Shown: piece after piece, positions 2,415 through 31,275 of the stretch
Layout: the number at the start of each line of letters is the position of its first letter
Position numbering within the stretch: the stretch's first letter is position 1
NCBI GenBank assembly: GCA_003241965.1
Contig: QBMB01000011.1
Span: 1-64,000, forward strand
Length of the DNA: 64,000 bases
Reading direction: 5' to 3'
From: Burkholderiales bacterium
GTDB lineage: Bacteria > Pseudomonadota > Gammaproteobacteria > Burkholderiales > Burkholderiaceae_C
Notes under the pieces: generated by a model
What the model was told of the DNA's origin: nothing
What the model saw: the letters and a program-made list of their open reading frames with translations, nothing else
Databases searched by the model: none
Position numbers and translations under genes: made by a program

Positions 2415-2478
2415 GGGGGCTCCTGTGGGGGTGAGGATCGGGTGAAGGCGTCAGGGAGCAAACCCCTGTATCCGCATG

Positions 2479-4230
2479 TCAGAAAGATTCCCAGTCGCCC
2501 GCTGCATCGGCCGTTGCGGGCGTGGCAGCGCGCCGCGCAACCGGCTGCACGGCAGGGCGGTGTGCGGGGGGCAGTGCGGGTCTTGCGGCGGGTTTCTTCG
2601 ACGCAACCGGGGCCAGTGATTTCCTCGGAGCCACCACGGGCGTGTGGTTGCGCACCAGTGGCGTCACGGCGCTGAAGCCCGCCTGGTTGCCCGAGAGGCG
2701 GAACACCGCCACCGCCTGCACCAGATCGCCGGCCTGGGTGCGCAGGCTGCTGGCCGCGGCGGCCATTTCTTCCACCAGCGCAGCGTTCTGCTGCGTGGCC
2801 TGGTCCATCTGCGTGACGGCTTCGCCGATCTGGCCCACACCGTCGCTCTGTTCTTTGCTGGCCGAGCTGATCTCGCCCATGATGTCGGTGACGCGTCGCA
2901 CGCTGTCCACCACTTCGCTCATCGTGGCGCCGGCCTTGTCCACCAGCACCGTGCCGGTCTCCACGCGCTCCACGCTGTCGTTGATGAGCTGCTTGATCTC
3001 CTTGGCAGCCGCTGCGCTGCGCTGGGCGAGGTTGCGCACCTCGCCGGCCACCACGGCAAAACCACGACCCTGTTCACCGGCCCGTGCCGCTTCCACCGCA
3101 GCGTTGAGCGCGAGGATGTTGGTCTGGAAGGCGATGCCGTCGATCACGCTGATGATGTCGGAGATCTTGCGCGAGCTCTCGTTGATGCCGCGCATGGTGT
3201 CCACCACCTGGCTGACCACCTGGCCGCCTTCGATCGCCACGCGCGATGCACTCTGGGCCAGCTGGTTGGCCTGAGCGGCGTTGTCGGCGTTCTGGCGCAC
3301 GGTCGAGGACAGCTCTTCCATCGAGGCGGCGGTTTGTTCCAGCGCACTGGCCTGGCTTTCGGTGCGTGAACTCAGGTCCTGGTTGCCCTGGGCGATCTGC
3401 TCGCTGGCGCTGGACACCGATTCGGAGCCGACGCGCACGCGTCCCACCACCTGCACCAGGCCGGTCTGCATGTCGTCCAGCGCTTTCAGCAGCACGCCGG
3501 TTTCGTCCATCGACTTGACTTGCACCGTGCGTGTCAGGTCGCCCCCGGCCACGGCACGTGCCAGTTCGACCGCGCTGTTGATGGGTCCGGTGATGGAGCG
3601 GATGAGCCACAGGGCCACCACGGCGGCAAGAGCGGCCACGAGGGTCACGGCCACCGCGATGGTGATGATGAGGGTCTTCACCATGCCTTTGGCGGCCTCG
3701 CTGGCGGCTTGTGCGCCCGCAGTCTGGAAGTTCACTGCGTCGTCGATGGTTGTGAAGTAGGCCAGCTGTCCCGGACGAACGACATCGAACAGGTAGGCAA
3801 TGGCCGGCTCGCGCTCGCCGGCTTCGATCATCCTGATGAACTGGTCCACGCCGCTGCGGAAGGGGGCGCGCGCCACATTGATCGCGGTTTGAAGTTCCTG
3901 GCCGCGCGTGGTGTTGATGAGGTCCTCCAGCTTCTTGACGTATCCGTCCACTTCGGGCCGCGTCGCCTCGATGCTCTGCTTTTCCTGCGCCACTTTGGCC
4001 GGGTCGGTGTACAGCGCGATGTTGCGGATGGCGCGCGCCTGGAAGCTGGCCGCATCGCGCAGGTTCTCCAACTTCGCAATGACGGTCATGCGGCGCTCGG
4101 TGATGTCCACCAGTTCGGTCTGCACGTCCATGGTCCTTGAGACGCTGAGCGCGCCGATTGCGAGCAGCATAAGGACGAGCAGGCTGAATGCAGCCGCCAG
4201 ACGGGTGGATATCTTGATGTTCTTGAACAT
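2479..4230 (-). CDS. Methyl-accepting chemotaxis protein with C-terminal DWESF tether
   Basis: A 583-residue chemoreceptor with membrane helices at about residues 11-31 and 185-210, a periplasmic helical sensor between them, then HAMP and the signalling domain with the canonical hairpin tip. After the signalling domain comes a proline- and alanine-rich linker of about 60 residues ending in DWESF. This fits the xWxxF pentapeptide that tethers the methyltransferase CheR and the methylesterase CheB in enteric high-abundance receptors. A FliA-type promoter lies about 100 bases upstream (4334-4360). The 65-base gap to the second receptor gene (849-2414) suggests co-transcription. The chemoeffector cannot be deduced. 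Confidence 0.93.
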
Positions 4231-6491: not shown

Positions 6492-7607
6492 TCAGCCGCC
6501 CAGCTTCCTGCGGGTGAGCTTGCGGTAGACGGTGGCGCGGCTGATGCCCAGGGCGCGGGCGGCTTCCATCACATTGCCGCGGGCCTGTTCCACCGCCCGA
6601 AGAATGAGCGCAGTTTCCACGTCTTTCAACGGCACCGCTGCACCCTGTCCCTCCAGCGGCATGCGCTCGCCGCCCGCGTTGAGCCGGGCGTGCAGGTTGA
6701 GCCGCAGCCCCGACCACAGCGGCACTTCCATGGCGCTGCGCTGTGCGCGGGCTGCGTCGAACAAGGTTTCCAGTGGGACTGCAAACACGTCGGTGCAATG
6801 GCCCGCGTGTTCCGGTGGAGCGATGCCGAGCATTTCGGCCGCAGGCCGGTTCAGGCCGGTGATGTGGCCGTCTGCGTCCACGCACACCAGACCGTCGCTG
6901 TCGCCGCCCAACGTCTGCCCAGGCCAGTTCAGGCTCAGCAGCAGCCGGTGGGGGCGGGCCAGCGCCAGTGCGTTTTCAATGCTGCGCGCCGATTGGGTGA
7001 CGAGGTGCTTGAGGGCAGGTTGTTCCACCACATTCACACCGGTGAGGTCGAGCATGCCCACGCACTGACCGTCCGGTCCCCAGATGGGCGCGCCGGCGCA
7101 GCTGTAGGCGCTGGTGGCGTCGAAGAAATGTTCACCCCGGTGCAGCCACACCGGCTGCAGCTCGGCCAGCGTGGCGCCGATGGCGGTGGTGCCCACGGCG
7201 CGTTCGGACAGATCGACCCCCACGCGCGCAATGCTCGATGCCAGCGGGTTGTGGCGGTCCACCGGGCCGTTGACGTCGATCACCAGGCCGCTGGCGTCGG
7301 TGAGGATGGCGAAGTAGCGCGTGTTGGCCATGGCCCGCGTGAGCGACTGGATCACCGGCGCGGCGGCCCGCAGCAAAGGCTGGTTGGCGTCGATGGCGTT
7401 GCGAACCGCGCTGTGGGTCACCGCATCGAAGGCAATGGGCTGGTGCGGGTTGAAACCCATGTCCAGGCAGCGCCGCCACGAGCGTTCGATCCAGGGCGAG
7501 AGTGCTGCCGGTGCGTTCGGGTCTCGCGTGTCCAGCACCGCCTTGCGCGCCTGCTCGATCAAGGCCAGGCGGTGTGGATGGGTCAGCGGTGGCTGGGTGT
7601 TGGACAT
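6492..7607 (-). CDS. AcoR-like regulator (GAF + Fis HTH) without AAA+ domain
   Basis: A 371-residue transcription regulator that begins like the acetoin regulator AcoR: the ERSWRRC motif near residue 46, then a GAF sensor domain (about 85-230) with the GAPIWGPDGQ.VGMLDLTG core, a short PAS-like stretch, and a C-terminal Fis-type helix-turn-helix (NVMEAARALGISRATVYRKL). The roughly 240-residue AAA+ domain that contacts sigma54 in AcoR is absent: no Walker A, GAFTGA or Walker B motif can be found. It therefore probably acts by a different mechanism, as a repressor or sigma70 co-regulator. It lies downstream of and co-directional with the molybdenum hydroxylase operon, so it is a good candidate regulator of cox and perhaps aor. 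GTG (7610) and ATG (7607) starts are adjacent. Confidence 0.82.
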   Translation of the reverse strand: MSNTQPPLTHPHRLALIEQARKAVLDTRDPNAPAALSPWIERSWRRCLDMGFNPHQPIAFDAVTHSAVRNAIDANQPLLRAAAPVIQSLTRAMANTRYFAILTDASGLVIDVNGPVDRHNPLASSIARVGVDLSERAVGTTAIGATLAELQPVWLHRGEHFFDATSAYSCAGAPIWGPDGQCVGMLDLTGVNVVEQPALKHLVTQSARSIENALALARPHRLLLSLNWPGQTLGGDSDGLVCVDADGHITGLNRPAAEMLGIAPPEHAGHCTDVFAVPLETLFDAARAQRSAMEVPLWSGLRLNLHARLNAGGERMPLEGQGAAVPLKDVETALILRAVEQARGNVMEAARALGISRATVYRKLTRRKLGG

Positions 7608-7650
7608 CACCCAAACATTAGAGCAGCGTTTGATCGCCCCCGCATGGGGA

Positions 7651-8343
7651 TCAACCAGCCACAGGGTCGGTGTTAACCCCCGGCGCGGGTTCCGGCCAGC
7701 GGCAGACCCAGCCGGTGTCGCGGGCCAGTGTGTCGAGATCTTCCGGGGTGTCCAGGTCGCGGGTGTGGTGCGGGTTGTCCACCACCCAGGCCAGGGTGGC
7801 CTCTGGGTGCGCCGCGCGCCACTGTCGCAGGCTGGAGCCGGGCGCGGCGAGCAGGTCGGCGCGCACCGCCGCGTCGAACATCACCGGATGGCCGGGCACG
7901 CCGTTCACCATGGGCACCAGCACCTGGCAGCCGGGCGGGCGGCGCTGGAAGGCGTGCAGCACGGCCCCGATGTCGGCGGCGTTGATCAGCGGTTGGTCGG
8001 CCAGCAGCACCATCACGGCCTGTACGTCGTTGCCCAGGGCGTGCAGGCCGATGTGCAGCGAGGAGGCCGGGTCGTCTTCGGGCGCGGGGTTGACCACGTG
8101 GCGCGGCGTCAGGTGCTCCGGCCAGTGCGACAGGTGCGCCTGGATCTCGGCGGCGTGGTGGCCGAGCACCAGCACCGGTGTGTGCAGTCCTGCGCTGCGC
8201 ACCGAGCCTACGGTGCGTTGCAGCAGGCTGTGGCCCTGCACCTCCAGCAGGCACTTGGCGCGCCCACCCATGCGCCTCCCTGCACCTGCGGCCAGGATCA
8301 GCACACCGGTGCGCAGGGGTTGTGGAGCGGGGTGCGTGTTCAC
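7651..8343 (-). CDS. mocA: MobA/MocA-like nucleotidyltransferase for molybdenum cofactor
   Basis: A 230-residue NTP-transferase. The nucleotide-binding signature LILAAGAGRRMGG followed by K(C)LLEVQG lies near residues 16-36, and the metal-binding DQPL is present in mid-protein. MocA enzymes add CMP to molybdopterin to give the cytosine dinucleotide cofactor used by xanthine-oxidase-family hydroxylases, which matches the neighbouring cox genes. MobA (GMP transfer) is the alternative but fits the context less well. The GTG start overlaps the xdhC stop (GTGA), so the two are translationally coupled. The last 40 codons carry no further motif. Confidence 0.8.
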   Translation of the reverse strand: MNTHPAPQPLRTGVLILAAGAGRRMGGRAKCLLEVQGHSLLQRTVGSVRSAGLHTPVLVLGHHAAEIQAHLSHWPEHLTPRHVVNPAPEDDPASSLHIGLHALGNDVQAVMVLLADQPLINAADIGAVLHAFQRRPPGCQVLVPMVNGVPGHPVMFDAAVRADLLAAPGSSLRQWRAAHPEATLAWVVDNPHHTRDLDTPEDLDTLARDTGWVCRWPEPAPGVNTDPVAG

Positions 8344-9428
8344 CGGGCGGTGGCGGGTGAAAAGCAGGTCGGTCCGGACGGCTCGGCCTCACCATCGGCC
8401 AGCGCGTTCTTGGCGTGCGCCACGCCCATGTCGCGCGGCAGCGGCACACCGTTTTTCACCGCCAGCACCTCGGCCATGATGCTCACCGCGATCTCCGGTG
8501 GTGTCTTGCTGCCGATGTAAATGCCGATCGGCCCGCGCAGCCGCGCCAGGCTCTCGGCGGTCTGCTCGAAGTGTTCGATCAAGCGGGCGTGGCGCGCTTC
8601 GTTGTTGCGCCGCGAACCGATGGCGCCCACGTAGAACGCGTCGGTGTCCAGCGCTTCGAGCAAGGCCAGGTCGTCGAGTTTGGGGTCGTGCGTGAGCGCG
8701 ATCACGCAGCTGCGGCGGTCCACCTTGAAGTCGTGCACCACGTCGTCGGGCATGCCGGTGAGCAGGGCCACACCGGGCACCGACCAGGCCGCGCGGTACT
8801 CCTCGCGCGGGTCGCACACCGTGACCGCGAAGCCGCTGAACAAGGCCATGGTGGCCAGGTATTCGGTGAGCTGACCAGCGCCGATGAGCAGCATGCGGTA
8901 CTCGGGGCCGAAGGTGTTGGCGAGCACCGCGCCGTCGTCGATCAGCGGCGCGGGCGCGGTGACCGCGCGCAGCTCCACGCGGCCGCTGGCGATGTCGGTG
9001 CGCCGCTGGACCATGAGGCCGTCGGCCAAGGTGTGCACCAGCGCGAGCAGCGATGCAGGGTCGGGGTTGAATTCGAGCACCAGCTCCAGCGTGCCGCCGC
9101 AAGGCAGGCCGAAGCGGTGGGCCTCATCCGCGCTCACGCCGTAGGTCACGCGCTGCGGCGTGCTGTCGGGAATCTCGTGCGTGATGCCCGCTGCACTGGC
9201 GCTGGCGTCGGTCTGGTTGGCCCGGCTGTAGCGGTAGATGAGGTCGTCCTCGATGCAACCACCCGAGACCGAGCCGACCACCGCGCCACTTTCACACAGC
9301 GCCATGATCGAGCCCACCGGGCGCGGCGACGAACCCCAGGTGCGCACCACGGTGGCAAGCAGGGCGCGTTGTCCCTGGTTGCGCCAGCCGTGCAGCGTGC
9401 GCAGGACGGTGACGTCGAGGTTTTCCAT
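8340..9428 (-). CDS. xdhC: XdhC family cofactor-maturation protein
   Basis: A 362-residue XdhC/CoxI-type protein. Visible features are the N-terminal XdhC region with SVSGGCIEDD, a Rossmann-like segment (IGAGQLTEYLATMA) in the middle, and the C-terminal family signature GAIGSRRN ... GIYIGSKTPPEIAVSI. Members bind the molybdenum cofactor and help its sulfuration and insertion into xanthine dehydrogenase-type enzymes. A GGAG ribosome site precedes the ATG. It sits between coxG and mocA in one operon, consistent with maturation of the CoxL active site. Confidence 0.88.
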   Translation of the reverse strand: MENLDVTVLRTLHGWRNQGQRALLATVVRTWGSSPRPVGSIMALCESGAVVGSVSGGCIEDDLIYRYSRANQTDASASAAGITHEIPDSTPQRVTYGVSADEAHRFGLPCGGTLELVLEFNPDPASLLALVHTLADGLMVQRRTDIASGRVELRAVTAPAPLIDDGAVLANTFGPEYRMLLIGAGQLTEYLATMALFSGFAVTVCDPREEYRAAWSVPGVALLTGMPDDVVHDFKVDRRSCVIALTHDPKLDDLALLEALDTDAFYVGAIGSRRNNEARHARLIEHFEQTAESLARLRGPIGIYIGSKTPPEIAVSIMAEVLAVKNGVPLPRDMGVAHAKNALADGEAEPSGPTCFSPATAR

Positions 9429-9442
9429 GGGCGTTGGCTCCT

Positions 9443-10015
9443 TCAGCCCCGAGTGGCCAGGTAGACGGCAGCCGCCGCGAGGACGGCGATGGTGCCCCAG
9501 ACCCAGGCAGGCAGGCCGGCCTTGGCGGTGGGCGCGGGCAGGGCCACCACCTCGCCAGTGGCGGCGGGCGGATAGCGGCGTTGCAACTCTTCGTCAAAGC
9601 GGCGGAAGAAGTCTTCCGCGAGCGACTTGGCAGCGCCGTCGATCAGCCGCTGGCCGAGCTGCGCGATCTTGCCTCCCACGGTGGAGTGCACGGTGTAGCT
9701 GAGTTCGCAGCCGGTGCCGCTGGGTTTGAGCAACACGGCCGATTCGCCCTTGCCGAAACCGGCCACGCCACCCTGCGCGTCGAAGCTGAGTTTGTACGAC
9801 TGCGGGGGCACGATGTCGGAGAGCACCACGCGGCCGTTGAAGCGCGCGGACACCGGGCCAATCTTGATGGCGGTGCCCACCGCATAGGTGTTCTCAGCGG
9901 TGAGCTCGAACTTCTCGCAGCCCGGGATGCAGGTCTTGAGGATCTCCGGGTCGTTGAGGGCTTCCCAGGCCTGTTGCTGTGTCACGGCGAGTGGCCGATT
10001 GCCTTGCATGTCCAC
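9443..10015 (-). CDS. coxG: CoxG-like SRPBCC protein with C-terminal membrane anchor
   Basis: A 190-residue protein with the CoxG/SRPBCC fold: GNRPLAVTQQQAWEALNDPEIL at the start, then C(I)PGCEKFE and GKGESAVLL. The last roughly 20 residues (VWGTIAVLAAAAVYLATRG) form a single hydrophobic helix after a Pro/Ala-rich linker. CoxG is reported to anchor CO dehydrogenase to the cytoplasmic membrane in carboxydotrophs. The GTG start at 10015 is preferred because a GGAG lies 8 bases before it; an ATG two codons later is the alternative. It lies in the coxSLMDEG order of the operon. Confidence 0.87.
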   Translation of the reverse strand: MDMQGNRPLAVTQQQAWEALNDPEILKTCIPGCEKFELTAENTYAVGTAIKIGPVSARFNGRVVLSDIVPPQSYKLSFDAQGGVAGFGKGESAVLLKPSGTGCELSYTVHSTVGGKIAQLGQRLIDGAAKSLAEDFFRRFDEELQRRYPPAATGEVVALPAPTAKAGLPAWVWGTIAVLAAAAVYLATRG

Positions 10016-10061
10016 GTTGAATTCTCCGGTTGGTTGTGTGTGTGTGTGAAGGCTCTGCGGA

Positions 10062-11237
10062 TCAGGTGCGCTGCATCAGCGCGGCCATCGATCGGGCCAG
10101 GTCTTCCAGGCGGCTGAGGTTGTGCACGGCCAGTGTGCCGTGGGCGTGGCGCTGCAACACGGCGGCACCGGTGGCCAAGGGCTGGTAACCGTCAAAGCGC
10201 AGCAGCGGGTTGAGCCACAGAAGCTGTCGGGTGTGGCGCTTGAGCCATTGCAGTTCGGTGTCCAGTGCTTCGGGCGCACCGGTGTCCAGACCGTCGGTGA
10301 TGAGCAGCACCACGGTGCGTCGGCCCACGAGCACGCGGCGGTGGTGGGTGCGCAGGTCAGCGAGTGACTCGCCCAGGCGCGTGCCACCGGCGAAGTCTTC
10401 AATCGCGTCGTTGGCCATGGCGAGCATCTGGTCGGTGTCGCTGTGGCGGAAGGCGGTGCGCAGGTCGGTGAGGTGGGTGCCGAAGGCGAAGGCGGTGCGT
10501 GGTGTGCCCCGGGTGGCCTGGTGCAAAAAGGCCAGCAGCAGGCGCGCGTAGCGCTCCATCGAGCCCGAGATGTCGACCAGGATCAGCAGGGGCAGCGGTT
10601 GCTGGCGGCGTGTTTTCATGGGCACGTGCAGCAGCTCGCCATCAAACCGGCGGGCTTGCTGCAGGGCGCGCGGCCAGTTGGGTCGGTGGCCACGTGTGCC
10701 GGCGCGTTCGCGGCGCGAGCGCACCGGTGGCAGGGGCAGGGGGATGTCGCGCACGAGCTGTTCGACCAGGCGGAATTCGCTGGCCGAGAGGCCGGCAAAG
10801 TCGGCGTGGCGCAGGCGCTGCTGGTCGCTCGCGCTCATGGCCGCGTCGAACTTCAGATCGGTCTCGCCCTGGTTGGGTGTGCGGGCCTTGAGGCCGGCCA
10901 CGCTCAGTGCTTCCTGCACGCGCGCCTTGCGCCGCACGGGGTGCGCCTTGGCGGCCTTGGGCAGCATTTGCGCGAGCAGTTGTTGCGCGAGTTCGGGGTT
11001 GCGAAAGAAGGCATCGAACATTTCGCCGAACACACCGAGGTCTTGTTGGCGACTCACCAGCACGGCCTCCAACGCGGCGCGCAAATCGTCCTTGCGCTCA
11101 ACGCCCACCGCTTGGGTGGCGGTGATGGCCAGTGCCATGCGGCTGCTGTCCACGGGCACGCCAGCTCTGCGCAGCGCTCTTCCAAAGGCGGTGATGTGGT
11201 CGGGCAGCTTTCCGCTGCGTGCGTCGCCGAGGATCAT
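10062..11237 (-). CDS. coxE: CoxE-like VWA domain protein
   Basis: A 391-residue protein with a C-terminal von Willebrand A domain. The metal-ion adhesion motif DISGSMERYARLLLAF (DxSxS) and a later LLITDGLDTG are clear. CoxE works with the AAA+ ATPase CoxD in post-translational assembly of the CO dehydrogenase active site. The start at 11237 (MILGDARSG) was chosen because the upstream in-frame extension is a low-complexity Arg-rich stretch reading into the palindromic element. The element (11296-11614) and about 430 bases of non-coding DNA separate it from coxD, which is unusual because these genes are normally adjacent or overlapping. Confidence 0.87.
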   Translation of the reverse strand: MILGDARSGKLPDHITAFGRALRRAGVPVDSSRMALAITATQAVGVERKDDLRAALEAVLVSRQQDLGVFGEMFDAFFRNPELAQQLLAQMLPKAAKAHPVRRKARVQEALSVAGLKARTPNQGETDLKFDAAMSASDQQRLRHADFAGLSASEFRLVEQLVRDIPLPLPPVRSRRERAGTRGHRPNWPRALQQARRFDGELLHVPMKTRRQQPLPLLILVDISGSMERYARLLLAFLHQATRGTPRTAFAFGTHLTDLRTAFRHSDTDQMLAMANDAIEDFAGGTRLGESLADLRTHHRRVLVGRRTVVLLITDGLDTGAPEALDTELQWLKRHTRQLLWLNPLLRFDGYQPLATGAAVLQRHAHGTLAVHNLSRLEDLARSMAALMQRT

Positions 11238-11295
11238 GCTTTTTCCACGCGGCTTTTTGCGCCTGCACCTCGCGCTGACGGCTGGCGTGGTCCGT

Positions 11296-11614
11296 GTTCT
11301 CCGGCGCACGGTCGCGGGCGTCTGCCCGGGCAGGCCTGCATGTTCGCGTCAACACCGTGGTTTGCGCACTTGCTCTGTGGCAACCGCGAATGGCGCCTGC
11401 GCCCCCAGACCCCACCAGCCGTCGAGAGTAGCAAGAGGGCGCGCAAAAGGTTGTCTTTCTCGTGGCGTGCCCAGGTGCCACTGGGGTCGATGGGGTGGGT
11501 GTCCGGGCGCAGGCGCCATTCGCGGTTGCCACAGAGGTCGAGCCCAGACGAAGCTGTTGACGCAATGGTCGCCCAAGCGCCCAAACAGACGCCCGCGACC
11601 GTGCGCCGGAGAAC
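11296..11614. repeat. Large palindromic non-coding element between coxD and coxE
   Basis: The 434 bases between coxE (11237) and coxD (11672) hold no credible gene but form a long interrupted palindrome centred at about 11455. The outer arms, 11296-11324 and 11586-11614, are 29-base perfect reverse complements. The inner arms, 11373-11404 and 11505-11536, are 32-base perfect reverse complements. A 9-base pair (11346-11354 and 11555-11563) lies symmetrically between them. The stretches between the arms are similar but diverged. The element would fold into a very long stem in RNA, or it represents two inverted copies of a shorter repeat. All three arm pairs give the same centre, so this is not chance. 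Confidence 0.85.
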
Positions 11615-11671
11615 GGGCACACGCCCCATCGGCCCGGAAGCAACAGAAGCGAGCAAGGTTCCCACCACAAG

Positions 11672-12579
<908 letters not shown>

Positions 12580-12583
<4 letters not shown>

Positions 12584-13371
12584 CCGTTGGCCAGCGCCAC
12601 CGCCACCTGTGTCTGCACCTTGATGAGGTGGGCGCGGTAGGCCTGGCTCGCGTGCAGGTCGGCGCTGATGTCGGTGGCATCGATCGTCACGGCGTTCACC
12701 GCATCGGGCGTGAAGCTCTTGCCGAGCGCGGCTTCCAGACCCCCATGGCGGAACACGCCGTTGCCAGTGCCGGTGATGGCCACGCGCACGCCGGCAGCGG
12801 TCTGCGCCACGAACACACCCACCAGCGCAAAGCGCGAGGCGGGCTGGCGGAACTTGGCGTAGGCCGATCTGGTGGGCACGGGGAAGCTGATCGCGGTGAT
12901 CAGTTCACCAGCGTCCAGCGCTGTGGTGTAGAGGCCTTGGAAAAAGTCGTCGGCAGCGATGGTGCGGCGGTCGGTGTGCACCGTGGCGCCCAGGCCCAGC
13001 ACCGCGCTGGGGTAGCACGCGGCGGGGTCGTTGTTGGCCACCGAGCCGCCCATGGTGCCCATGGCACGCACCTGCCGGTCGCCAATGCCGTCGGCCAATG
13101 CGGCCAGCCCGGGAATGAGCTTGCGCACATCGGCGTGGTTGGCCACGTCCTGGTGGCGGGTCATGGCGCCGATGACGATGCTCTGGCCCTCCACCTTGAT
13201 GCCGCGCAGCTCGCTCACGCCGCCGAGGTCCACCAGGTGTTCGGGCTGCATGAGCCGCTGCTTCATCGAAGCGAGCATGGTCTGGCCACCGGCCAGGGGC
13301 TGTGCGCCGCCTGCGGTCAGGCGTTTCGCGTCGGCCAGGGTGGTGGGTTGTTCAAGGGTGAATGCGTACAT
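12580..13371 (-). CDS. coxM: FAD-binding medium subunit of CO dehydrogenase-type hydroxylase
   Basis: A 263-residue flavoprotein subunit of the xanthine-oxidase family. The two FAD-binding glycine signatures are present: AGGQTMLASMK near residue 30 and TMGGSVANNDPAA near residue 110. It passes electrons from the iron-sulfur subunit to the quinone or another acceptor. An AAGGAG ribosome site precedes the ATG by 6 bases. It lies directly after coxL (10-base gap). The length is a little short of the usual 280-290 residues but both FAD loops are intact. Confidence 0.92.
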
Positions 13372-13381
13372 GTTGTTCTCC

Positions 13382-15760
13382 TTATTTCGCGGCTTGGATC
13401 GCGGTCCACACGCGGTTCGGGCTGGCGGGCATATCGAGGTCTTTCACGCCCAGCGGCGCCAGTGCATCCAGCACCGCGTTCATCACCGCCGGGGGTGAGC
13501 CGATGGCGCCAGCTTCGCCGCAGCCTTTGGTGCCCAGCGGGTTGGTGGTGCAGGGCGTGCACACGTGGCCCAGGGTGAAGTCGGGGAAGTCGTCGGCGCG
13601 GGGCATGGTGTAGTCCATGAACGAGCCGGTGACGAGCTGGCCCGTTTCGCGGTCGTACACGCAGTGTTCCATGAGCGCCTGGCCGATGCCCTGCACCAGA
13701 CCACCATGCACCTGGCCCTCCACGATCATCGGGTTGATGATGGTGCCGAAATCGTCCACCGCGGTGAAGCGGTCGACCCGCACCACGCCGGTGTTGGGGT
13801 CGATCTCGACCTCGCAGATGTGGGTGCCGGCGGGGAAGGTGAAGTTGGTCGGGTCGTAGAACGCGGTTTCGTTCAGGCCCGGCTCCAGTTTGTCCAGCGG
13901 GTAGTTGTGCGGCACATAGGCGGTGAGCGCAACCTGGCCGAAGGTGACCTTCTTGTCGGTGCCCTTCACGGTGAATTCGCCGTTGGCGAATTCCACGTCG
14001 GCGTCGCCGGTCTCCATCAGGTGGGCCGCGATCTTCTTGGCCTTGGCTTCGATCTTGTCGAGCGCACGCATGATGGCCGCACCCCCCACCGAGATGGAGC
14101 GCGAGCCGTAGGTGCCCATGCCGAAGGGCACACGCCCGGTGTCGCCGTGCACGATGTCGACCATCGAAGGGTCCATGCCCAGGCGCGACGCCACCACCTG
14201 CGCGAACGTGGTCTCGTGGCCCTGGCCGTGGCTGTGTGAACCGGTGAACACGGTCACGCTGCCGGTGGGGTGAACCCGCACTTCACCGCACTCGAACAGG
14301 CCGGCGCGCGCCCCGAGCGCACCGGCGATGTTGCTGGGTGCGAGACCGCAGGCCTCGATGTAGCTGGAGTAGCCGATGCCGCGCAGCAGGCCATTGGCCC
14401 GGGAAGCCGCCTGGCGCATGGGCAGGCCGGCGATGTCGGCGAGCTGGTTGGCCTTGTCCAGGCAGGCCGGGAAGTCGCCGGTGTCGTACTGCAACGCCAC
14501 GGGCGTCTGGTAGGGGAACTCGGTGATGAAGTTGCGCCGGCGGATCTCGTCTTGCGACAGACCCGTTTCCCACGCCGCGCGGCTGACGATGCGCTCCAGC
14601 AGGTAGGTGGCTTCAGGCCGACCCGCGCCGCGGTAGGCGTCCACCGGCGAGGTGTTGGTGAACCACGAGTCCACCTCCACATACACCTGCGGCGTCTTGT
14701 ACTGGCCCGCCAGCAGCGTGGCGTACAGGATGGTGGGCACGGCGGTGGAGAAGGTGGAGAGGTAGGCACCGAGGTTGGCGTCGGTGTGCACCTTGAAGGC
14801 GAGGAAATGGCCGTCTTTGTCGAGCGCCATTTCGGCGTGGGTCACGTGGTCGCGGCCGTGTGCGTCGCACAGGAAGGCCTCGGAGCGGTCGCAGTTCCAC
14901 TTGATCGCGCAGTTGAGCTTCTTGGAGGCCCAGGTGAGGCAGACGTCTTCGGCGTACAGGTAGATCTTGGCACCGAAGCCGCCGCCCACGTCGGGCGCAA
15001 TCACGCGCACCTTGTGCTCGGGCAGGCCCATCACGAAGGCGGTGAGCAGCAGACGCTCCACGTGCGGGTTCTGGTTCGACACGTAGAGCGTGTAGTCGTC
15101 ACCGGCGCGGTTGTACGAGCCGATCACCGCGCGCGGCTCCATCGGGTTGGGCACCAGGCGGTTGTTGATGAGGTCGATCTTGGTCACGTGCGCGGCGCCT
15201 GCAAACGCCGCATCCACCGCACCCTGGTCACCGATGGACCACTTGTAGCAATGGTTGCCGGGTGCTGCGTCGTGCAGCGCGGTGGCGCTGGGCAGCATGG
15301 CATCGCGCACATCCACCACGGCCGGCAGCGGCTCGTACTCCACCACCACGAGTTCGGCGGCGTTCTTCGCCTGCTCCAGCGTTTCGGCCACGACCATGAC
15401 CACGTGGTCGCCCACGTAGCGCGCCTTGCCGTGCGCCAGGATGGGGTGGGGCGGCTCCTTCATGGGCTGGCCCTGGGTGTCGGTTATCAGCCAGCCGCAG
15501 GGCAGGCCACCGATCTTGTCGGCGGCCACGTCTTCACCGTCGAAGACGCCGACCACGCCGGGCGCGGCCAGGGCTGCAGTCTTGTCGATGCTGATGATCT
15601 TGGCGTGGGCGTGCGGCGAGCGCACGAACACCGCCTGGCGCATGTTGGCCAGCACGATGTCGTCGGTGTACTGGCCGGCGCCGGTGAGGAAGCGGTAGTC
15701 CTCCTTGCGCAGGAGGGATTCCCCGATGTGGGGGAGTTTGGCGAAGTCGATGGCACCCAT
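13382..15760 (-). CDS. coxL: Molybdenum hydroxylase large subunit, form II CO dehydrogenase type
   Basis: A 792-residue catalytic subunit. The cofactor loop [10 protein letters not shown] lies at 256-265, the active-site loop reads AYRGAGR at 375-381, and the presumed catalytic Glu lies in KGCGEAG at about residue 749. The AYRGAGR loop is that of form II (CoxL-like) enzymes. The form I CO dehydrogenase loop AYRCSFR, whose Cys holds the copper-sulfur cluster, is absent. CO oxidation is therefore uncertain, and an aldehyde or N-heterocycle substrate is equally possible. Full coxS-L-M order, ribosome site AGGAG before the ATG, and the complete accessory set downstream support a functional complex. 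Confidence 0.9.
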
Positions 15761-15772
15761 GTCGTTGGCTCC

Positions 15773-16240
15773 TTATGCCTTGAGCGCAGCAGCGCCTTGT
15801 TGAACGGCTTTGACAATGTTCTGGTAACCGGTGCAGCGGCACAGATTGCCCTCCAGGCCTTCGCGGATCTCGCGGGCGCTGGCGTCGGGGTGGCTCTGGC
15901 ACAGGCTGATCGAGCTCAACACCATGCCGGGCGTGCAGAAGCCGCATTGCAGGCCGTGGCAGTCCTTGAAGGCGGCCTGCATGGGGTGCATGGTGCCGTC
16001 GGCTGCGGCCAGGCCTTCGATGGTGGTGACTTCGCGTCCGGCGGCTTGCGCCAGCAGCATGTTGCAGGACTTCACCGCGCGCCCGTCCATGAGCACCGTG
16101 CAAGCGCCGCATTGGGCGGTGTCGCAGCCCACGTGGGTGCCGGTGAGCTTGAGGTGTTCGCGAAGGGTTTGCACCAGCAGCGTGTGGGGCGCTGCGTCGA
16201 CGGTCACGGCCTTTCCGTTGACCTTCAGTTGAACCTGCAT
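15773..16240 (-). CDS. coxS: [2Fe-2S] small subunit of CO dehydrogenase-type hydroxylase
   Basis: A 155-residue iron-sulfur subunit. The plant-ferredoxin-type cluster is ligated by Cys 39, 44, 47 and 59 (CDTAQCGAC), and the second cluster in the helical C-terminal domain by Cys 99, 102, 134 and 136 (CGFC and CRC). All eight ligands are in place, and the length is standard. It is the first gene of the cox operon, with an AGGAG ribosome site 7 bases before the ATG. The 385 bases upstream are shared with the divergent aor operon. Confidence 0.94.
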
Positions 16241-16298
16241 GTTTGTCTCCTGGTGTTGTGGGCGAGAGTCAGTGAATCACGCTCGATTGGCCACCGGT

Positions 16299-16351
16299 TT
16301 GAGTGATTACCCTCAATTCAATTGGGTGCTTCCAATCATTCTCAATTTGAG
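16299..16351. promoter_or_regulatory. AT-rich inverted repeats upstream of coxS
   Basis: This short AT-rich stretch in an otherwise GC-rich region, 60-110 bases upstream of coxS, holds TTGAG-N8-CTCAA at 16299-16316 and CTCAA-N-TTGAG at 16341-16351. The same half-site thus occurs four times, in both arrangements. It looks like an operator or upstream activator region for the cox promoter. No clear sigma70 or sigma54 promoter could be assigned. Function is inference from symmetry and position. Confidence 0.35.
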
Positions 16352-16403
16352 ACGGGGTGCGGCTGCATTTCCATCGAATGACTTGCTGGAATGGACTTTC
16401 AAC

Positions 16404-16423
16404 GTATGCAAGTCAATGCATAC
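16404..16423. promoter_or_regulatory. Inverted repeat GTATG-N10-CATAC, site A
   Basis: A perfect five-base inverted repeat with a 10-base spacer (extending to GTATGCA ... TGCATAC, 7 bases with a 6-base spacer). It lies 164 bases upstream of coxS and about 200 bases upstream of aorA. The same arrangement recurs 159 bases away at site B. The duplication with identical spacing suggests binding sites of a dimeric regulator acting on the divergent cox and aor operons. Confidence 0.5.
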
Positions 16424-16562
16424 AACGGTTGGTGCAAGGCATGCGGGGACACATCGCTGAGGCAAGGCCGCGTGAGCGTGTCGCAAACTGAGACTTTCTG
16501 GCCGTCCACCGCCAGGTTGCGGGTAAACCCGGAGGTTGAAATGGAGCTGAAACCAAACAATC

Positions 16563-16582
16563 GTATGAAGAAGCTTGCATAC
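16563..16582. promoter_or_regulatory. Inverted repeat GTATG-N10-CATAC, site B
   Basis: The second copy of the motif at 16404, sharing CGTATG, the 10-base spacing and TGCATACA. It ends 43 bases before the aorA start codon, which places it in the likely promoter or leader of the aor operon. Binding here could repress transcription or position a polymerase. The spacer sequence differs from site A, as expected for a protein-recognised dyad rather than a recent duplication. Confidence 0.5.
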
Positions 16583-16625
16583 ATGACCGACCAGCACAGG
16601 CTTCTACCCACACCCGGAGACCCTT

Positions 16626-17102
16626 ATGCAAAAAGTCCTACACATCAACCCCGACAAATGCACCGGCTGCCTGCAGTGCGAGATGGCGTGTTCGTTCGAG
16701 AACTACGGCACCTACGCCACCTCGAAGTCGCGCATCAAGGTTTTTGACTTTCACCACACCGGCAAAAAAGTGCCCTACACCTGCACCCAGTGCGACGAGG
16801 CCTGGTGCCTGCACGCCTGCCCGGTGGAGGCGATCACGGTGGACAAGGTGACGGGCGCGAAAGTGGTGAACGAAACCACCTGCGTGGGTTGCAAGGTCTG
16901 CACCATCGCCTGCCCCTTCGGGACCATCAACTACGTGCAGGAAACCGGCAAGGTTCAGAAATGCGACCTGTGCGGTGGCGAGCCGGCCTGCGCCGAAGCC
17001 TGCCCGACCGCCGCGATCACGTTCATCGACGCCAACTGGACCGGCATGGACAAGATGAAGCAGTGGGCCGACAAGCTGGGCAACCAGCCGTCTGCGTCCT
17101 GA
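16626..17102 (+). CDS. aorA: Polyferredoxin subunit of aldehyde oxidoreductase
   Basis: A 158-residue ferredoxin-like protein with 16 cysteines arranged to bind four [4Fe-4S] clusters: Cys 12/15/18/22, 53/56/61/65, 86/89/92/96 and 113/116/122/126. It has no signal peptide or membrane segment, so it is cytoplasmic. Size and position match AorA of the Aromatoleum tungsten AOR, which forms an electron-conducting chain between catalytic subunits and the flavin subunit. A GGAG lies 7 bases before the ATG. It is the first gene of a five-gene operon, with 70 bases to aorB. Confidence 0.9.
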   Translation: MQKVLHINPDKCTGCLQCEMACSFENYGTYATSKSRIKVFDFHHTGKKVPYTCTQCDEAWCLHACPVEAITVDKVTGAKVVNETTCVGCKVCTIACPFGTINYVQETGKVQKCDLCGGEPACAEACPTAAITFIDANWTGMDKMKQWADKLGNQPSAS

Positions 17103-17172
17103 AAACTTGTGGGTCAAACCACTCGCGAAGCGATGTGCTCTGACCCCAACTGATTAACCAAGGAGCATCAAC

Positions 17173-19020
17173 ATGTCATGGGCTGGAAAAATCCTCCGCG
17201 TCAACCTGACCGCGGGCACCGTGAAATCCGAACCGCTGAACACCGAATGGGCGCGTGCCTACATCGGCTCCCGCGGTCTGGGCAGCAAATACCTGGTGAG
17301 CGAGGTCGACCCCAAGGTCGACCCGCTGGCACCCGAGAACAAGATCATCTGGGCCACGGGCCCGTTGACCGGCACCATGGCCTCCACCGGTGGCCGCTAC
17401 ACCGTCATCACCAAAAGCCCGCTGACCGGTGCCATTGCCTGCTCGAACTCGGGCGGCTACTGGGGCGCCGAGCTCAAGATGGCCGGCTGGGACATGATCA
17501 TCTTCGAGGGCAAGTCCCCTACGCCGGTGTACCTCTACATCAACGACGACGAGGTCGAGCTGCGCGACGCCAGCCACCTCTGGGGCCAGAGCGTGTGGAA
17601 GACCGAAGAGGTCCTCAAGTCCAGCCTGCAGGACCCGCTGGTGCGTGTGTCGAGCATCGGCAAGGCCGGTGAAAACGGCGTGCTGTACGCAGCCGTGGTG
17701 AACGACCTGCACCGCGCGGCCGGTCGCTCGGGCGTGGGCACGGTGATGGGCAGCAAAAACCTCAAAGCCATCGCCGTGCGTGGCACCAAGGGCGTGGGCA
17801 ACATCCGCGACCCCAAGGCCTTCATGAAGACCACCTTCGAGAAGAAGAAGATCCTGGCCGAAAACGCCGTGACGGGCCAGGGCCTGCCGGCCTACGGCAC
17901 GCAGGTGCTCATGAACGTGATCAACGAGATGGGCGCACTGCCCACGCGCAACCACCGCGACGTGCAGTTTGAGGGCGCGAAAGACATCTCGGCCGAAGCC
18001 ATGGTGACGCCGCGCGAGAGCGACGGCAAGAAGCACCTCGTGACCAACCAGGCCTGCTTCGGCTGCACCATCGCGTGCGGACGCATCAGCAAGATGGACG
18101 AGAACCACTTCACGGTGAAGAACAAGCCGCAGTACTGGGGCGCCAACGGCGGCCTGGAGTATGAGGCGGCCTGGGCGCTCGGTGCGGCCAACGGCGTGAA
18201 CGATCTGGAAGCGCTGCAATACGCCAACCTGCTGTGCAACGAAGAAGGGTTCGACCCCATCAGCTTCGGTGCCACCGTGGGCGCGGTGATGGAGCTCTAC
18301 GAGATGGGCGTGCTCACGAAAGAGCAGCTCGGCATCGACGCGAAATTCGGCTCGGCGCAGGCGCTGGCGCACTTCGCCGAGATCACCGCCAAGGGCGAAG
18401 GCTTTGGCAAGGAAATCGGCATGGGCTCCAAGCGCCTGACCGAAAAGTACGGCCACCCCGATTTGTCCATGAGCGTGAAGGGCCAGGAATTCCCGGCCTA
18501 CGACGGCCGCGCCATTCAAGGCATCGGCCTGGCGTACGCCACCTCCAACCGCGGTGCGTGCCACCTGCGCGGCTACACCATCGCTTCCGAAGTGCTGGGC
18601 ATTCCAGTGAAGACCGATCCGCTGGAGAGCGAAGGCAAGCCGGAACTGGTGAAGGCGTTCCAGGACGCCACCGCCGCGTTCGACTCGTCGGGCCTGTGCG
18701 TGTTCACCACGTTCGCCTGGGGCGTGGCCGATCTGGCGCCACAGCTGCAGGCCGCGTGCAACGAAGAGTTCACCACCGAAGAGCTGGAGAAGATCGGTGA
18801 GCGCATCTGGAACATGGAACGCGAATTCAACAACGCCGCCGGCTTCACGTCCAAAGACGACAGCCTGCCCAAGCGCCTGCTGACCGAAGCTGCCAAGACC
18901 GGCGCGTCCAAGGGCATGGTCAGCAAGCTGCCCGAGATGCTGCCCAAGTACTACGCCGTGCGCGGCTGGGACCCGGAAGGCCGCCCCACCGCCGAGACCC
19001 GGGCGCGCTTGAGCCTGTAA
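17173..19020 (+). CDS. aorB: Tungsten-containing aldehyde:ferredoxin oxidoreductase catalytic subunit
   Basis: A 615-residue AOR-family enzyme. It interconverts aldehydes and carboxylic acids using a tungsten bis-pterin cofactor. The [4Fe-4S] ligands appear as Cys 295, 298 and 302 (CFGCTIAC) plus Cys 509 in DSSGLC, the same pattern as in the archaeal enzymes. The N-terminal cofactor region (ITKSPLTGAIACSNSGGYWG, 79-98) and NRGACHLRGYT (459-469) are conserved. Size and gene order match AorB of Aromatoleum. The ribosome site AAGGAG is strong. AOR enzymes are usually from anaerobic or facultative organisms, so its presence here suggests a denitrifying or microaerobic role, or aldehyde detoxification. 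The substrate is unknown. Confidence 0.93.
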   Translation: MSWAGKILRVNLTAGTVKSEPLNTEWARAYIGSRGLGSKYLVSEVDPKVDPLAPENKIIWATGPLTGTMASTGGRYTVITKSPLTGAIACSNSGGYWGAELKMAGWDMIIFEGKSPTPVYLYINDDEVELRDASHLWGQSVWKTEEVLKSSLQDPLVRVSSIGKAGENGVLYAAVVNDLHRAAGRSGVGTVMGSKNLKAIAVRGTKGVGNIRDPKAFMKTTFEKKKILAENAVTGQGLPAYGTQVLMNVINEMGALPTRNHRDVQFEGAKDISAEAMVTPRESDGKKHLVTNQACFGCTIACGRISKMDENHFTVKNKPQYWGANGGLEYEAAWALGAANGVNDLEALQYANLLCNEEGFDPISFGATVGAVMELYEMGVLTKEQLGIDAKFGSAQALAHFAEITAKGEGFGKEIGMGSKRLTEKYGHPDLSMSVKGQEFPAYDGRAIQGIGLAYATSNRGACHLRGYTIASEVLGIPVKTDPLESEGKPELVKAFQDATAAFDSSGLCVFTTFAWGVADLAPQLQAACNEEFTTEELEKIGERIWNMEREFNNAAGFTSKDDSLPKRLLTEAAKTGASKGMVSKLPEMLPKYYAVRGWDPEGRPTAETRARLSL

Positions 19021-19053
19021 GGTCCCGCGGCGAACAGCCTTGGCCTGAACCCA

Positions 19054-19087
19054 GGGGGCAGTCACCACGCTGCCCCCTTTCCTTTTT
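19054..19087 (+). terminator. Terminator-like hairpin between aorB and aorC
   Basis: The stem GGGGGCAG (19054-19061) pairs with CTGCCCCC (19070-19077) across an 8-base loop and is followed by TTTCCTTTTTT. It has the form of an intrinsic terminator, yet the aorC ribosome site follows within about 10 bases and aorC is needed for the complex. It probably lets only part of the transcripts through, lowering aorC relative to aorAB. Confidence 0.7.
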
Positions 19088-19102
19088 TCGAGGAGACAAG
19101 AC

Positions 19103-20389
19103 ATGCACCACGTCATCCTGGGCGCCGGCCCCGCCGGTGTCATTGCCGCCGAAACCATCCGCAAGCATGCCCCCGCCGACACCATCACCCTGGTGGGTGA
19201 TGAAGGTGAGCCGCCGTACTCGCGCATGGCCATTCCGTACCTGCTGATCGGCAACGTGAAGGAAGCCGGAACCTACCTGCGCAAGAGCCTCACGCACTAC
19301 ACCGATCTGCGCATCGACCAAGTGGCCGGGCGCGCCACCACGGTGGACACCCAGGCACGCACGGTGACACTGGACAACGGCAAGACGCTGAAGTTCGACA
19401 AGCTGCTGATCGCCACCGGTTCGCACCCGGTGCGTCCACCCATCCCCGGCATGGACCTGCCCGGCGTGCACCCCTGCTGGACGCTGGAAGACGCACGCGC
19501 CATCGCCGCGCTGGCCCAGCCGGGTGCCCGCGTGCTGCAGATGGGTGCGGGCTTCATCGGCTGCATCATCATGGAGGCCTTGGCCGCGCGCGGCGTGGAA
19601 CTGAGCGTGGTAGAGATGGGCGACCGCATGGTGCCGCGCATGATGGGACCCACCGCCGGCGGCATGATCCGCGACTGGTGCGAGAAGAAGGGCGTGAAGG
19701 TCTACACCGGGACCAAGGTGGAGGCCATCGAGGCCGCCACCAGCCCGGCCGCAGGCCTTCGTGTGAGGCTCTCAAGCGGGCAGACGGTGGAGGCCGACCT
19801 CGTGATCAGCGCCACCGGCGTGCGCCCTGCCATCGGCTTCCTGAAAGACTCGGGCATCACCTGTTTGCAAGGGGTGCTCACCGACGAACACCTGCAGACC
19901 AATGTGCCGGGCATTTACGCTGCGGGGGACTGCGCCGAGGCCTTCGACAAGGTCAGCGGCAAGACCATCGTGAGCGCCATCCAGCCCAATGCCGCCGAAC
20001 AGGCCCGCGTGGCCGCGCTCAACATGGTGGGCCAGAGGGCCGACCTCAAAGGCGTGACGCAGATCAACGTGCTCGACACGCTGGGCCTCATTTCCACGAG
20101 CTTTGGCAACTGGGAAGGTGTGCCCGGTGGCGAACACGCCGAGCTCACCGACAAGGCGGGTGGCCGCCACCTGAGTTTGCAGTTCAAGGACGACGTGATG
20201 GTCGGCTGCAACTCGGTCGGCTGGACCGAACACGTGGGCGTGATGCGCGGCCTGGTTGAAGGCCAGGTGAAGCTGGGCGAGTGGAAAGAACGCCTGATGC
20301 ACGATCCGACCAAACTGATGGATGCTTACCTGGCGAGTGCACAGGGTCAAGGACAGTGGGCGGGCGCTGGCGATGAACGCCGCCGCTGA
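19103..20389 (+). CDS. aorC: FAD/NAD-dependent oxidoreductase subunit of aldehyde oxidoreductase
   Basis: A 428-residue pyridine-nucleotide-disulfide-type flavoprotein. It has an N-terminal FAD loop (GAGPAGVIAAE, residues 6-16), an ATGSHPVRPPIPG linker, a second NAD-binding loop (MGAGFIGCIIMEALAARG) and the FAD-ribityl motif GIYAAGDCAEAFD. It matches AorC, which couples the aldehyde oxidoreductase to NAD+. An AGGAG ribosome site precedes the ATG, directly after the terminator-like hairpin. The codon usage does not differ obviously from that of aorB. Without the context it could be taken for a generic nitrite-reductase-type or ferredoxin reductase; the gene order makes AorC the best call. Confidence 0.88.
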   Translation: MHHVILGAGPAGVIAAETIRKHAPADTITLVGDEGEPPYSRMAIPYLLIGNVKEAGTYLRKSLTHYTDLRIDQVAGRATTVDTQARTVTLDNGKTLKFDKLLIATGSHPVRPPIPGMDLPGVHPCWTLEDARAIAALAQPGARVLQMGAGFIGCIIMEALAARGVELSVVEMGDRMVPRMMGPTAGGMIRDWCEKKGVKVYTGTKVEAIEAATSPAAGLRVRLSSGQTVEADLVISATGVRPAIGFLKDSGITCLQGVLTDEHLQTNVPGIYAAGDCAEAFDKVSGKTIVSAIQPNAAEQARVAALNMVGQRADLKGVTQINVLDTLGLISTSFGNWEGVPGGEHAELTDKAGGRHLSLQFKDDVMVGCNSVGWTEHVGVMRGLVEGQVKLGEWKERLMHDPTKLMDAYLASAQGQGQWAGAGDERRR

Positions 20390-20409
20390 AAATGGCATGT
20401 CTTTTTCCC

Positions 20410-20436
20410 CGTTCGCCCTGAGCCTGTCGAAGGGCC
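20410..20436. repeat. REP-like half-repeat between aorC and the moaD-like gene
   Basis: The 27-base sequence beginning CGTTCGCCCTGAGCCTGTCG is one arm of a widespread proteobacterial interspersed repeat. The same arm, with a C-to-T change, occurs at 21416-21443, where it is paired with its inverted partner. Here only a single arm is present, inside the aor operon and just before the moaD-like start codon. Confidence 0.75.
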
Positions 20437-20446
20437 TTCGCCATTC

Positions 20447-20701
20447 ATGAACATCACCTTCAAGCTCTTCGCCACGCTCACCGACTACCTGCCCCCCGAG
20501 GCCCGGCGCAGCAACCAGGTGTTGCTGGACATCGACCCGACCACGCCCATCAGCCAGATCATCGAACCCTTCGGCTTGCCGCCCAAGCTGGTGCATTTGG
20601 TGCTGGTCAACGGCAAGTACATCCAGCCAGAGGAGCGCTTGAATGCCACGTTGGTCGAAGGCGATGTGCTGGCCATCTGGCCACCCATCGCCGGGGGCTG
20701 A
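20447..20701 (+). CDS. moaD: MoaD/ThiS-like sulfur carrier
   Basis: An 84-residue ubiquitin-fold protein ending in the diglycine IAGG, the feature that is adenylated and thiocarboxylated in MoaD and ThiS. Its sequence (FKLFATLTDYLP at the start, VEGDVLAIWPPIAGG at the end) is of the MoaD type. MoaD delivers sulfur for the dithiolene of molybdopterin. A dedicated copy inside an AOR operon probably serves tungsten-pterin synthesis, as in other bacterial aor clusters. No clear ribosome site is seen; the REP-like arm occupies that place, so expression may depend on upstream translation. Confidence 0.87.
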   Translation: MNITFKLFATLTDYLPPEARRSNQVLLDIDPTTPISQIIEPFGLPPKLVHLVLVNGKYIQPEERLNATLVEGDVLAIWPPIAGG

Positions 20702-20706
20702 GGGCC

Positions 20707-21006
20707 GTGCAGTCGAGTTATGCGGAGCGGTTCGAACGCGATATGGGTTGCACCGAAACCGAGTGGCTGCGCTGGTTGCCGGCGGCGGTGGGTGCCTGTG
20801 TGTGGCGCCTGGAAGGCACGCACGCCGTCGTCGAGGTGCCGCCCGGGCGGCTTGCGTTGCACTGGGCGCAGCAGCCACTGCGCGTGATCGCGCTCATGCG
20901 CATGCCGGTGCTGCGGGTGAATTTCGTCTTCACCGGGCTGGATGCTGCGCAGCGTTACGCCTTCACGAAGCGCTTCGATCTCTACATGCAGCGCGGCGGC
21001 GGTTGA
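20707..21006 (+). CDS. Small protein of unknown function in the aor operon
   Basis: A 99-residue protein starting with GTG five bases after the moaD-like stop, so the two are probably translationally coupled. It has no signal peptide, no membrane helix and no cysteine pair for a cluster; Cys 15 and Cys 31 are isolated. Visible features are an acidic N-terminus, a Trp-rich middle (EWLRWLPAAVG, VWRLEG) and a hydrophobic strand-like region (VLRVNFVFTGL) ending in MQRGGG. I do not recognise the family. Tight coupling to the MoaD-like gene suggests a role in tungsten cofactor handling or AOR maturation, which is inference. The good reading frame and tight spacing support it as a real gene. Confidence 0.75.
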   Translation: MQSSYAERFERDMGCTETEWLRWLPAAVGACVWRLEGTHAVVEVPPGRLALHWAQQPLRVIALMRMPVLRVNFVFTGLDAAQRYAFTKRFDLYMQRGGG

Positions 21007-25322: not shown

Positions 25323-25361
25323 GATTTCTCCAGGACAATGGTGGGACGAAGGGGCGTTACA

Positions 25362-25399
25362 GCATAAGTGCAAACTCCATGCCCGCAAGGGGGTACTTG
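25362..25399. promoter_or_regulatory. Possible LysR-type operator region in the dctP/lysR intergenic DNA
   Basis: The 130 bases between dctP and the LysR gene hold two dyads: GCAT-N13-ATGC at 25362-25382 and CAAG-N6-CTTG at 25386-25399. LysR proteins bind interrupted dyads in such divergent regions, and the neighbour is a LysR gene. The dyads are short, so the call is tentative. Confidence 0.3.
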
Positions 25400-25452
25400 C
25401 CTGCCTATCGCGTTTCGGTTTCCTTTGAACAGGTGTTTTGGAGAGGGCTGTC

Positions 25453-26412: not shown

Positions 26413-26503
26413 GCGAAAAATTTTGAATTGGAACTGGCAGTAACCACGCTCCACAATCCGCCCAACGTCATCACGGTGACATGACGGATCAACAGGAGTC
26501 GCG

Positions 26504-27328: not shown

Positions 27329-27341
27329 CCAGGAGCTTCCC

Positions 27342-28307: not shown

Positions 28308-28314
28308 GGCAAGT

Positions 28315-28920: not shown

Positions 28921-28932
28921 AAGTCAACCGCC

Positions 28933-30243: not shown

Positions 30244-30285
30244 CGCACACGCCTCCACGAAACCACCAGCGCTGAGGACCAGGGC

Positions 30286-31263: not shown

Positions 31264-31275
31264 AGTCCCGTCAAC

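Follow-up and report, generated by a model that had tools for sequence, protein, structure and literature searches.

The aldehyde oxidoreductase (AOR) of Aromatoleum aromaticum oxidises a broad range of aldehydes, and its operon carries two MoaD-like genes, aorD and aorE, according to the available part of PMC6365974. The published marks of form II CoxL are the motif AYRGAGR and the gene order coxS-L-M (PMC13203968, in part), and aldehyde-oxidising enzymes with Cox-like S, M and L subunits are already known (PMC5131310 and PMC4726530, both in part). Genes for both kinds of enzyme lie back to back in the first 64,000 nucleotides of contig QBMB01000011.1 from a Burkholderiales bacterium (assembly GCA_003241965.1), a stretch referred to here as the window. 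A molybdenum (Mo) hydroxylase operon of the cox type, whose last gene encodes a GAF/Fis regulator, diverges there from an aorABC operon of the tungsten (W) type across a coxS/aorA spacer of 385 bases (16241-16625). This gene content and the divergent spacer had been described in an earlier sequence-only reading, and both were confirmed from the window sequence. We propose, with a probability of roughly 0.7, that CoxSLM and AorABC are functionally equivalent and usually replace each other under one regulator. Displacement by a functional equivalent is suggested by the exclusive distribution of the two enzymes, the single regulator, the single upstream element and the remnants of each operon that are found beside the regulator.

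The survey of the distribution drew on a sample of 349 genomes from the family, of which several are fragmented, with match limits of E <= 1e-250 for CoxL, <= 1e-100 for AorB and <= 1e-55 for the regulator. AorB was found in 99 genomes and CoxL of any kind in 150 (149 listed, G334 being left out), and the two occurred together in 13 genomes against 42.3 expected. The exclusion sharpens when only the window CoxL clade is counted (86 genomes, identity of at least 74%), which accompanies AorB in 3 of the 349 genomes against 24.4 expected (Fisher p 5e-11, phylogeny ignored). In these three genomes (G000, G341 and G163) cox and aor stand at one locus each time. The sequence-only reading had proposed a search for other coxSLM-aorABC neighbours and would have counted the lack of a conserved neighbourhood in related genomes as a refutation, and with only these three cases that point is nearly reached; the pattern is nevertheless one of mutual exclusion and not of a lack of link. 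Moreover, eight genera (g15, g16, g33, g50, g83, g88, g100 and g129) hold species with window-clade cox only together with species with aor only, and the cox/aor state has therefore probably changed several times inside genera.

Named AOR loci were compared as well. For 73 of 80 such loci the sequence upstream of aorA spans 2 kb or more, and the commonest arrangement is regulator and aor back to back, since 43 loci carry a divergent adjacent regulator without cox. Neither cox nor an adjacent regulator was seen in 22, cox adjoins aorA in seven, and in one (L099) cox is followed by the regulator and then by aorA. In the window and its like the cox operon is situated between the regulator and aorA. 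The nearest named relatives are Hydrogenophaga (AorB 98%), and the closest named AOR loci belong to Hydrogenophaga and other Comamonadaceae.

In 62 of 79 cox loci, coxS has within 600 bp upstream a divergent regulator that shares 44-60% identity with the window regulator. A divergent regulator is found at no more than 600 bp from aorA in 42 of 80 aor loci, 36 of these scoring above 200 bits. Matches below 200 bits were taken as paralogs in the regulator tree, in the second-clade counts and in the comparison of the element core with the regulator. The regulator is present in 132 of the 349 genomes: cox alone accompanies it in 68, aor alone in 54, both in 3 and neither in 7. Two of these last seven are cut by a contig end (within aorA in G112; also G166), G237 carries a different Mo hydroxylase, in G247 and G300 the regulator adjoins only xdhC, and in G239 and G099 it adjoins crcB, no enzyme being present. 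The regulator tree shows at least 13 label changes, of which no more than 1 (cox) to 3 (aor) are required by the starred branches. The window regulator groups with the aor-linked ones on a starred branch, and that of G163 falls among the cox-linked ones with moderate support.

The cox and aor spacers share TGTTTCATTTTGAGAATTTC (box 1), and most also carry CTAGGGTTnnnCCTAG (box 2) 37 or 38 bases further. In the window spacer two copies of this element point outward, one per operon. On the cox side (reverse strand) box 1 lies at 16338-16354 with one mismatch to the pattern, and an imperfect box 2 at 16302-16312, 37 bases from the box 1 core; on the aor side (forward strand) box 1 is an exact match at 16479-16495 and box 2 lies at 16521-16530, again 37 bases from the core. 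The element was first drawn by eye from printed spacers, and the set used afterwards for the counts contains the genomes of these same spacers. Upstream stretches were available for 80 of the 99 aor genomes and 80 of the 86 cox genomes, one of only 153 bases. The two-box form was found in 53 of 62 cox spacers and in 31 of 42 aor spacers, 13 aor spacers longer than 700 bases being left out, and in 0 of 50 simulated spacer sets (first-order simulations). Of 113 loci in genomes with the regulator, 107 have the box 1 core no more than 300 bases from the operon (aor 47/49, cox 60/64), as against 1 of 46 loci in genomes without the regulator. The comparison with genomes having the regulator elsewhere or absent was made after the element had been defined. 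Where the regulator is not adjacent the core is still present in 13 of 15 loci; in nine of these (G274, G307, G031, G299, G261, G186, G216, G025 and G169) the regulator is on another contig or more than 700 kb away, and the core occurs at seven of the nine. That the association holds without linkage is the strongest argument for an action of the regulator at the element, to which it is predicted to bind. In G163 the element precedes both coxS and aorA, with a single regulator between them. A search of the whole window genome found the pattern without mismatch on the aor side of the spacer and also at C111:60838, close to a cyclase-like gene. The latter (G000:C111:60838-60854, L344 1501-1517) is an exact box 1 copy upstream of that gene with GGGATTAATACCC nearby, and could be due to chance. 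No wider regulon is claimed, because about 0.6 exact matches are expected by chance by our own estimate.

Remnants of one operon are found at the locus of the other. G114, of the same genus as the window genome, has coxS fragments and then coxG, xdhC, mocA and the regulator kept beside its aor operon, and gave no match to coxL, M, D or E. In L057 (Hydrogenophaga intermedia) xdhC, mocA and the regulator adjoin aor, and in G169 the regulator stands beside xdhC alone with aor elsewhere. The solitary xdhC of G247 and G300 is counted among these remnants too. The reverse case is the cox genome G186, where aorD-like and orf99-like genes lie near the regulator without aorABC. In addition, G237 (L324 3180-6804) has, behind the regulator and the element, genes for an iron-sulfur subunit, a permuted MoCoBD protein of 716 amino acids and xdhC; the best stretch of the MoCoBD protein against CoxL is 27% over 117 columns.

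The claim of exclusion is limited to the window CoxL clade, because a second clade (63-72% identical, 63 genomes listed) has no regulator ortholog in any of its 63 genomes and no core in any of 15 promoters tested, and is only weakly depleted with aor (10 genomes against 17.9 expected, p 0.014). The two clades overlap in 0 of 349 genomes (15.5 expected). In six of the ten aor-bearing genomes of the second clade its cox genes lie within 25 kb of aor (5 to 23 kb, L143-L149); in G074 coxSLMDEG-xdhC and aorABCD all run in one direction, and in several genomes, such as G204 and G332, TupA-like genes lie between or near cox and aor.

The exclusive distribution of two unrelated enzymes is the pattern of a non-orthologous displacement, in which both would have the same function. 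Aldehyde oxidation is the simplest common task because the Aromatoleum enzyme accepts many aldehydes (PMC6365974, in part), and we judge it rather probable that the two enzymes share an aldehyde substrate. The GAF/Fis regulator would act at the two-box element upstream of the enzyme operon and would probably respond to an aldehyde or to some small molecule related to one. In most regulator species the element is followed by one enzyme operon, either for CoxSLM, CoxDEG and XdhC or for AorABC and two small maturation proteins. The window lineage has kept both, with cox between the regulator and aorA and a copy of the element for each operon. With its gene the last of the cox operon, one regulator should control both operons, and this joint control is in our judgement very probable. 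The sequence-only reading had suggested a shared regulator, which agrees with the one regulator family and the one upstream element found at both kinds of operon; its further suggestion of a single compound class gains indirect support, as each enzyme takes the place of the other under the same regulator (3/349; 68/54/3/7 of 132). Both enzymes would then oxidise the same aldehydes to acids, and metal supply, not the regulator, would decide which of them is active.

Such a scheme implies, but leaves unproven, that the form II "CO dehydrogenase" of the window clade is an aldehyde oxidoreductase. We lean slightly towards the wider view that the form II enzymes of this clade are Mo aldehyde oxidoreductases which, under one regulator and element, can be exchanged for a tungsten enzyme with another fold and, in at least one case, for a permuted Mo hydroxylase as the third type; species would commit to one metal, and a few Hydrogenophaga-like lineages would keep both enzymes, induced jointly, as insurance against a shortage of either metal. 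A regulator and element that serve either enzyme point to a specific function, for which the same inducer, the same substrates and cross-complementation would be expected. If true, nature would here offer a clear example of a single task that has passed between Mo and W enzymes among close relatives. A literature search that covered few subscription journals returned no report of cox/aor exchange or of a shared regulator.

Several observations weigh against functional replacement under one regulator. The Fisher tests of co-occurrence take no account of descent, and 42 aor and 15 cox genomes lack the regulator (as do 160 others). The core is missing at four cox loci with an adjacent regulator and at two aor loci with the regulator elsewhere, and one aor locus has the core in a genome without the regulator; in L099 no core was found in the 400 bases upstream of coxS. 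When up to one mismatch is allowed, the genome-wide pattern search gives 5 matches against 3 for the control. A single clade of cox-linked regulators is not rejected by the approximately unbiased test (p 0.074). Moreover, the in-gel activity of the coxSLM complex of Rubrivivax gelatinosus was unchanged by formaldehyde, acetaldehyde, octyl aldehyde and butyraldehyde (PMC10434068, in part). This is a related complex, which may or may not belong to the window clade; the four aldehydes are all aliphatic, an aromatic one not being named in that passage, and the activity rose slightly in CO2-enriched medium (same source).

The nature of the cox enzyme bears on whether its link to aor has anything to do with aldehydes. 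The window CoxL has AYRGAGR at the place of the cysteine motif in solved CO dehydrogenases (alignment to 8uem, 1ffu and 1n5w), as do all 47 CoxL locus sequences checked (some genomes twice), and the window gene order is coxS-L-M. The window CoxL is assigned to form II because both agree with the published marks, an assignment made from sequence. That the operon encodes a CO dehydrogenase, with its link to aor unrelated to aldehydes, is highly improbable, even if CO dehydrogenases are the closest structures to the window CoxL in the PDB and homologs of coxD, E, G and I are present. The cysteine of the AYXCSFR loop of form I Mo-Cu CO dehydrogenase is absent from the window CoxL, which scores 667.6 bits against the CO dehydrogenase model TIGR02416 (cut-off 991.15), and a true CO dehydrogenase was disfavoured on the motif and this score; in addition, isolates having form II alone often show no CO consumption (PMC13203968, in part). 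The window CoxL also stays below the cut-off of the Mo glyceraldehyde dehydrogenase model NF041018 (643.7 bits against 790), and CoxM has its top score against the glyceraldehyde dehydrogenase beta subunit, below the curated cut-off.

The other alternatives concern what the shared regulator and the adjacency mean. A regulator that senses Mo/W supply, the pterin cofactor or redox state, and drives any pterin enzyme behind the element while the reactions differ, is unlikely. It would suit the three enzyme types found behind the regulator, all pterin enzymes, the TupA-like gene often near it, and its GAF domain, as such domains have many possible ligands, but it leaves unexplained why a genome has either enzyme and seldom the two together. 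A TupA-like gene was found in 82 of the 96 genomes with aor only, in 40 of the 83 with cox only, in all 3 dual genomes and in 57 of the 167 others (which include second-clade cox genomes), and the curated TupA cut-off is reached in none of the 349. Tungstate uptake as the divider between cox and aor fits these counts only partly. In L099 a partial gene for a TupA-like tungstate-binding protein (2-622) lies directly upstream of coxS. The sequence-only reading had proposed an oxygen-dependent pair, an aerobic and a nitrate-respiring enzyme chosen by the shared regulator. One regulator with two operons in the window genome would agree with this, which is however very unlikely: 122 of the 132 regulator genomes own just one of cox and aor, and an oxygen switch found no support, the same element preceding both window operons. 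Chance adjacency after horizontal transfer, with no functional meaning, would be in keeping with the rarity of cox beside aor (8 of the 73 named loci) and is scarcely credible, given that two separate CoxL lineages occur at AOR loci and that the regulator and element recur at single-operon loci. The CoxL of the dual loci fall in two separate starred tree groups, so these loci arose at least twice.

The cox genes of the window are all on the reverse strand and were assigned by domain matches, with the motif as well for coxL: coxS, the [2Fe-2S] subunit (15773-16240), coxL, the Mo subunit (13382-15760), coxM, the FAD subunit (12580-13371), the AAA ATPase gene coxD (11672-12583), coxE (VWA_CoxE, 10062 to about 11237, the start chosen by eye as the longest open reading frame starts at 11309), coxG (9443-10015), the xdhC/coxI maturation factor (8340-9428), mocA (NTP_transf_3, 7651-8343), which we take to be a probable molybdopterin (MPT) cytidylyltransferase gene, and lastly the regulator (6492-7610), with a GAF domain, a weak PAS match and a Fis-type helix-turn-helix (HTH). 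Between coxD and coxE lies an inverted-repeat element of about 320 bp (11296-11614), with 99-nt arms 74% and 36-nt arms 92% complementary; weaker partial matches occur on three other contigs of the genome, and it resembles a small mobile or repetitive element.

On the forward strand, aorA encodes the 4Fe-4S subunit (16626-17102), aorB the tungsten-type catalytic subunit (17173-19020), aorC the FAD/NAD subunit (19103-20389) and aorD a MoaD-like protein (20447-20701), again by domain matches. The alignment of AorB with the Aromatoleum AOR (PDB 8c0z) covers the full length, and WorS, WorL and the FAD/NAD subunit are encoded in one operon, so that AorABC is predicted to be a class III WOR of the tungsten type. 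The last gene, orf99 (99 amino acids, 20707-21006), is probably aorE. A Pfam search with it gave no match; its C-terminal Gly-Gly-Gly is invariant in 46 aligned sequences, and in its predicted structure (mean predicted local distance difference test score, pLDDT, 83) the closest relative is the "MoaD related protein" 1v8c at E 3e-3, nothing being found at E <= 1e-3.

The sequence-only reading had called the two operons an island. No sign of a mobile island was seen, and a mobile island was rejected because chromosomal housekeeping genes surround both operons; the window also holds gyrA, aroA-cmk, genes for an S1-domain protein, glutamine synthetase, an NtrC-like protein and thymidylate synthase, and a tmRNA gene. 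Two consecutive genes for methyl-accepting chemotaxis receptors (849-4230) lie downstream of the regulator. Positions 24357-34899 encode TRAP transporters, a LysR regulator, a D-glutamate cyclase and a fused hydantoinase A/B (5-oxoprolinase-like) protein, presumably a D-glutamate or pyroglutamate utilisation cluster.

Several described systems resemble parts of the locus. The regulator shares a GAF sensor and a Fis HTH with the AcoR/DhaR type, and the DhaR model matches its residues 32-279 at 90.3 bits (below the cut-off of 551), whereas no AAA+ sigma-54 interaction domain was among its Pfam matches. With the form II CoxSLM ("putative" or BMS-type CO dehydrogenase) the window shares AYRGAGR and the coxSLM order, but its clade is tied through the regulator and element to an aldehyde oxidoreductase. 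The Mo glyceraldehyde oxidoreductase and the piperonal oxidase PceSML, aldehyde enzymes of the XO family, have Cox-like S, M and L subunits as the window does (PMC4726530, PMC5131310, in part); their gene orders differ, and the window scores lie below the curated cut-offs. Finally, AorABC(DE) of Aromatoleum aromaticum has the same order as the window, A-B-C followed by small MoaD-like genes, whereas the window aor operon diverges from a Mo hydroxylase operon across a common spacer and has a regulator, none being named in the available part of the paper on the Aromatoleum enzyme.
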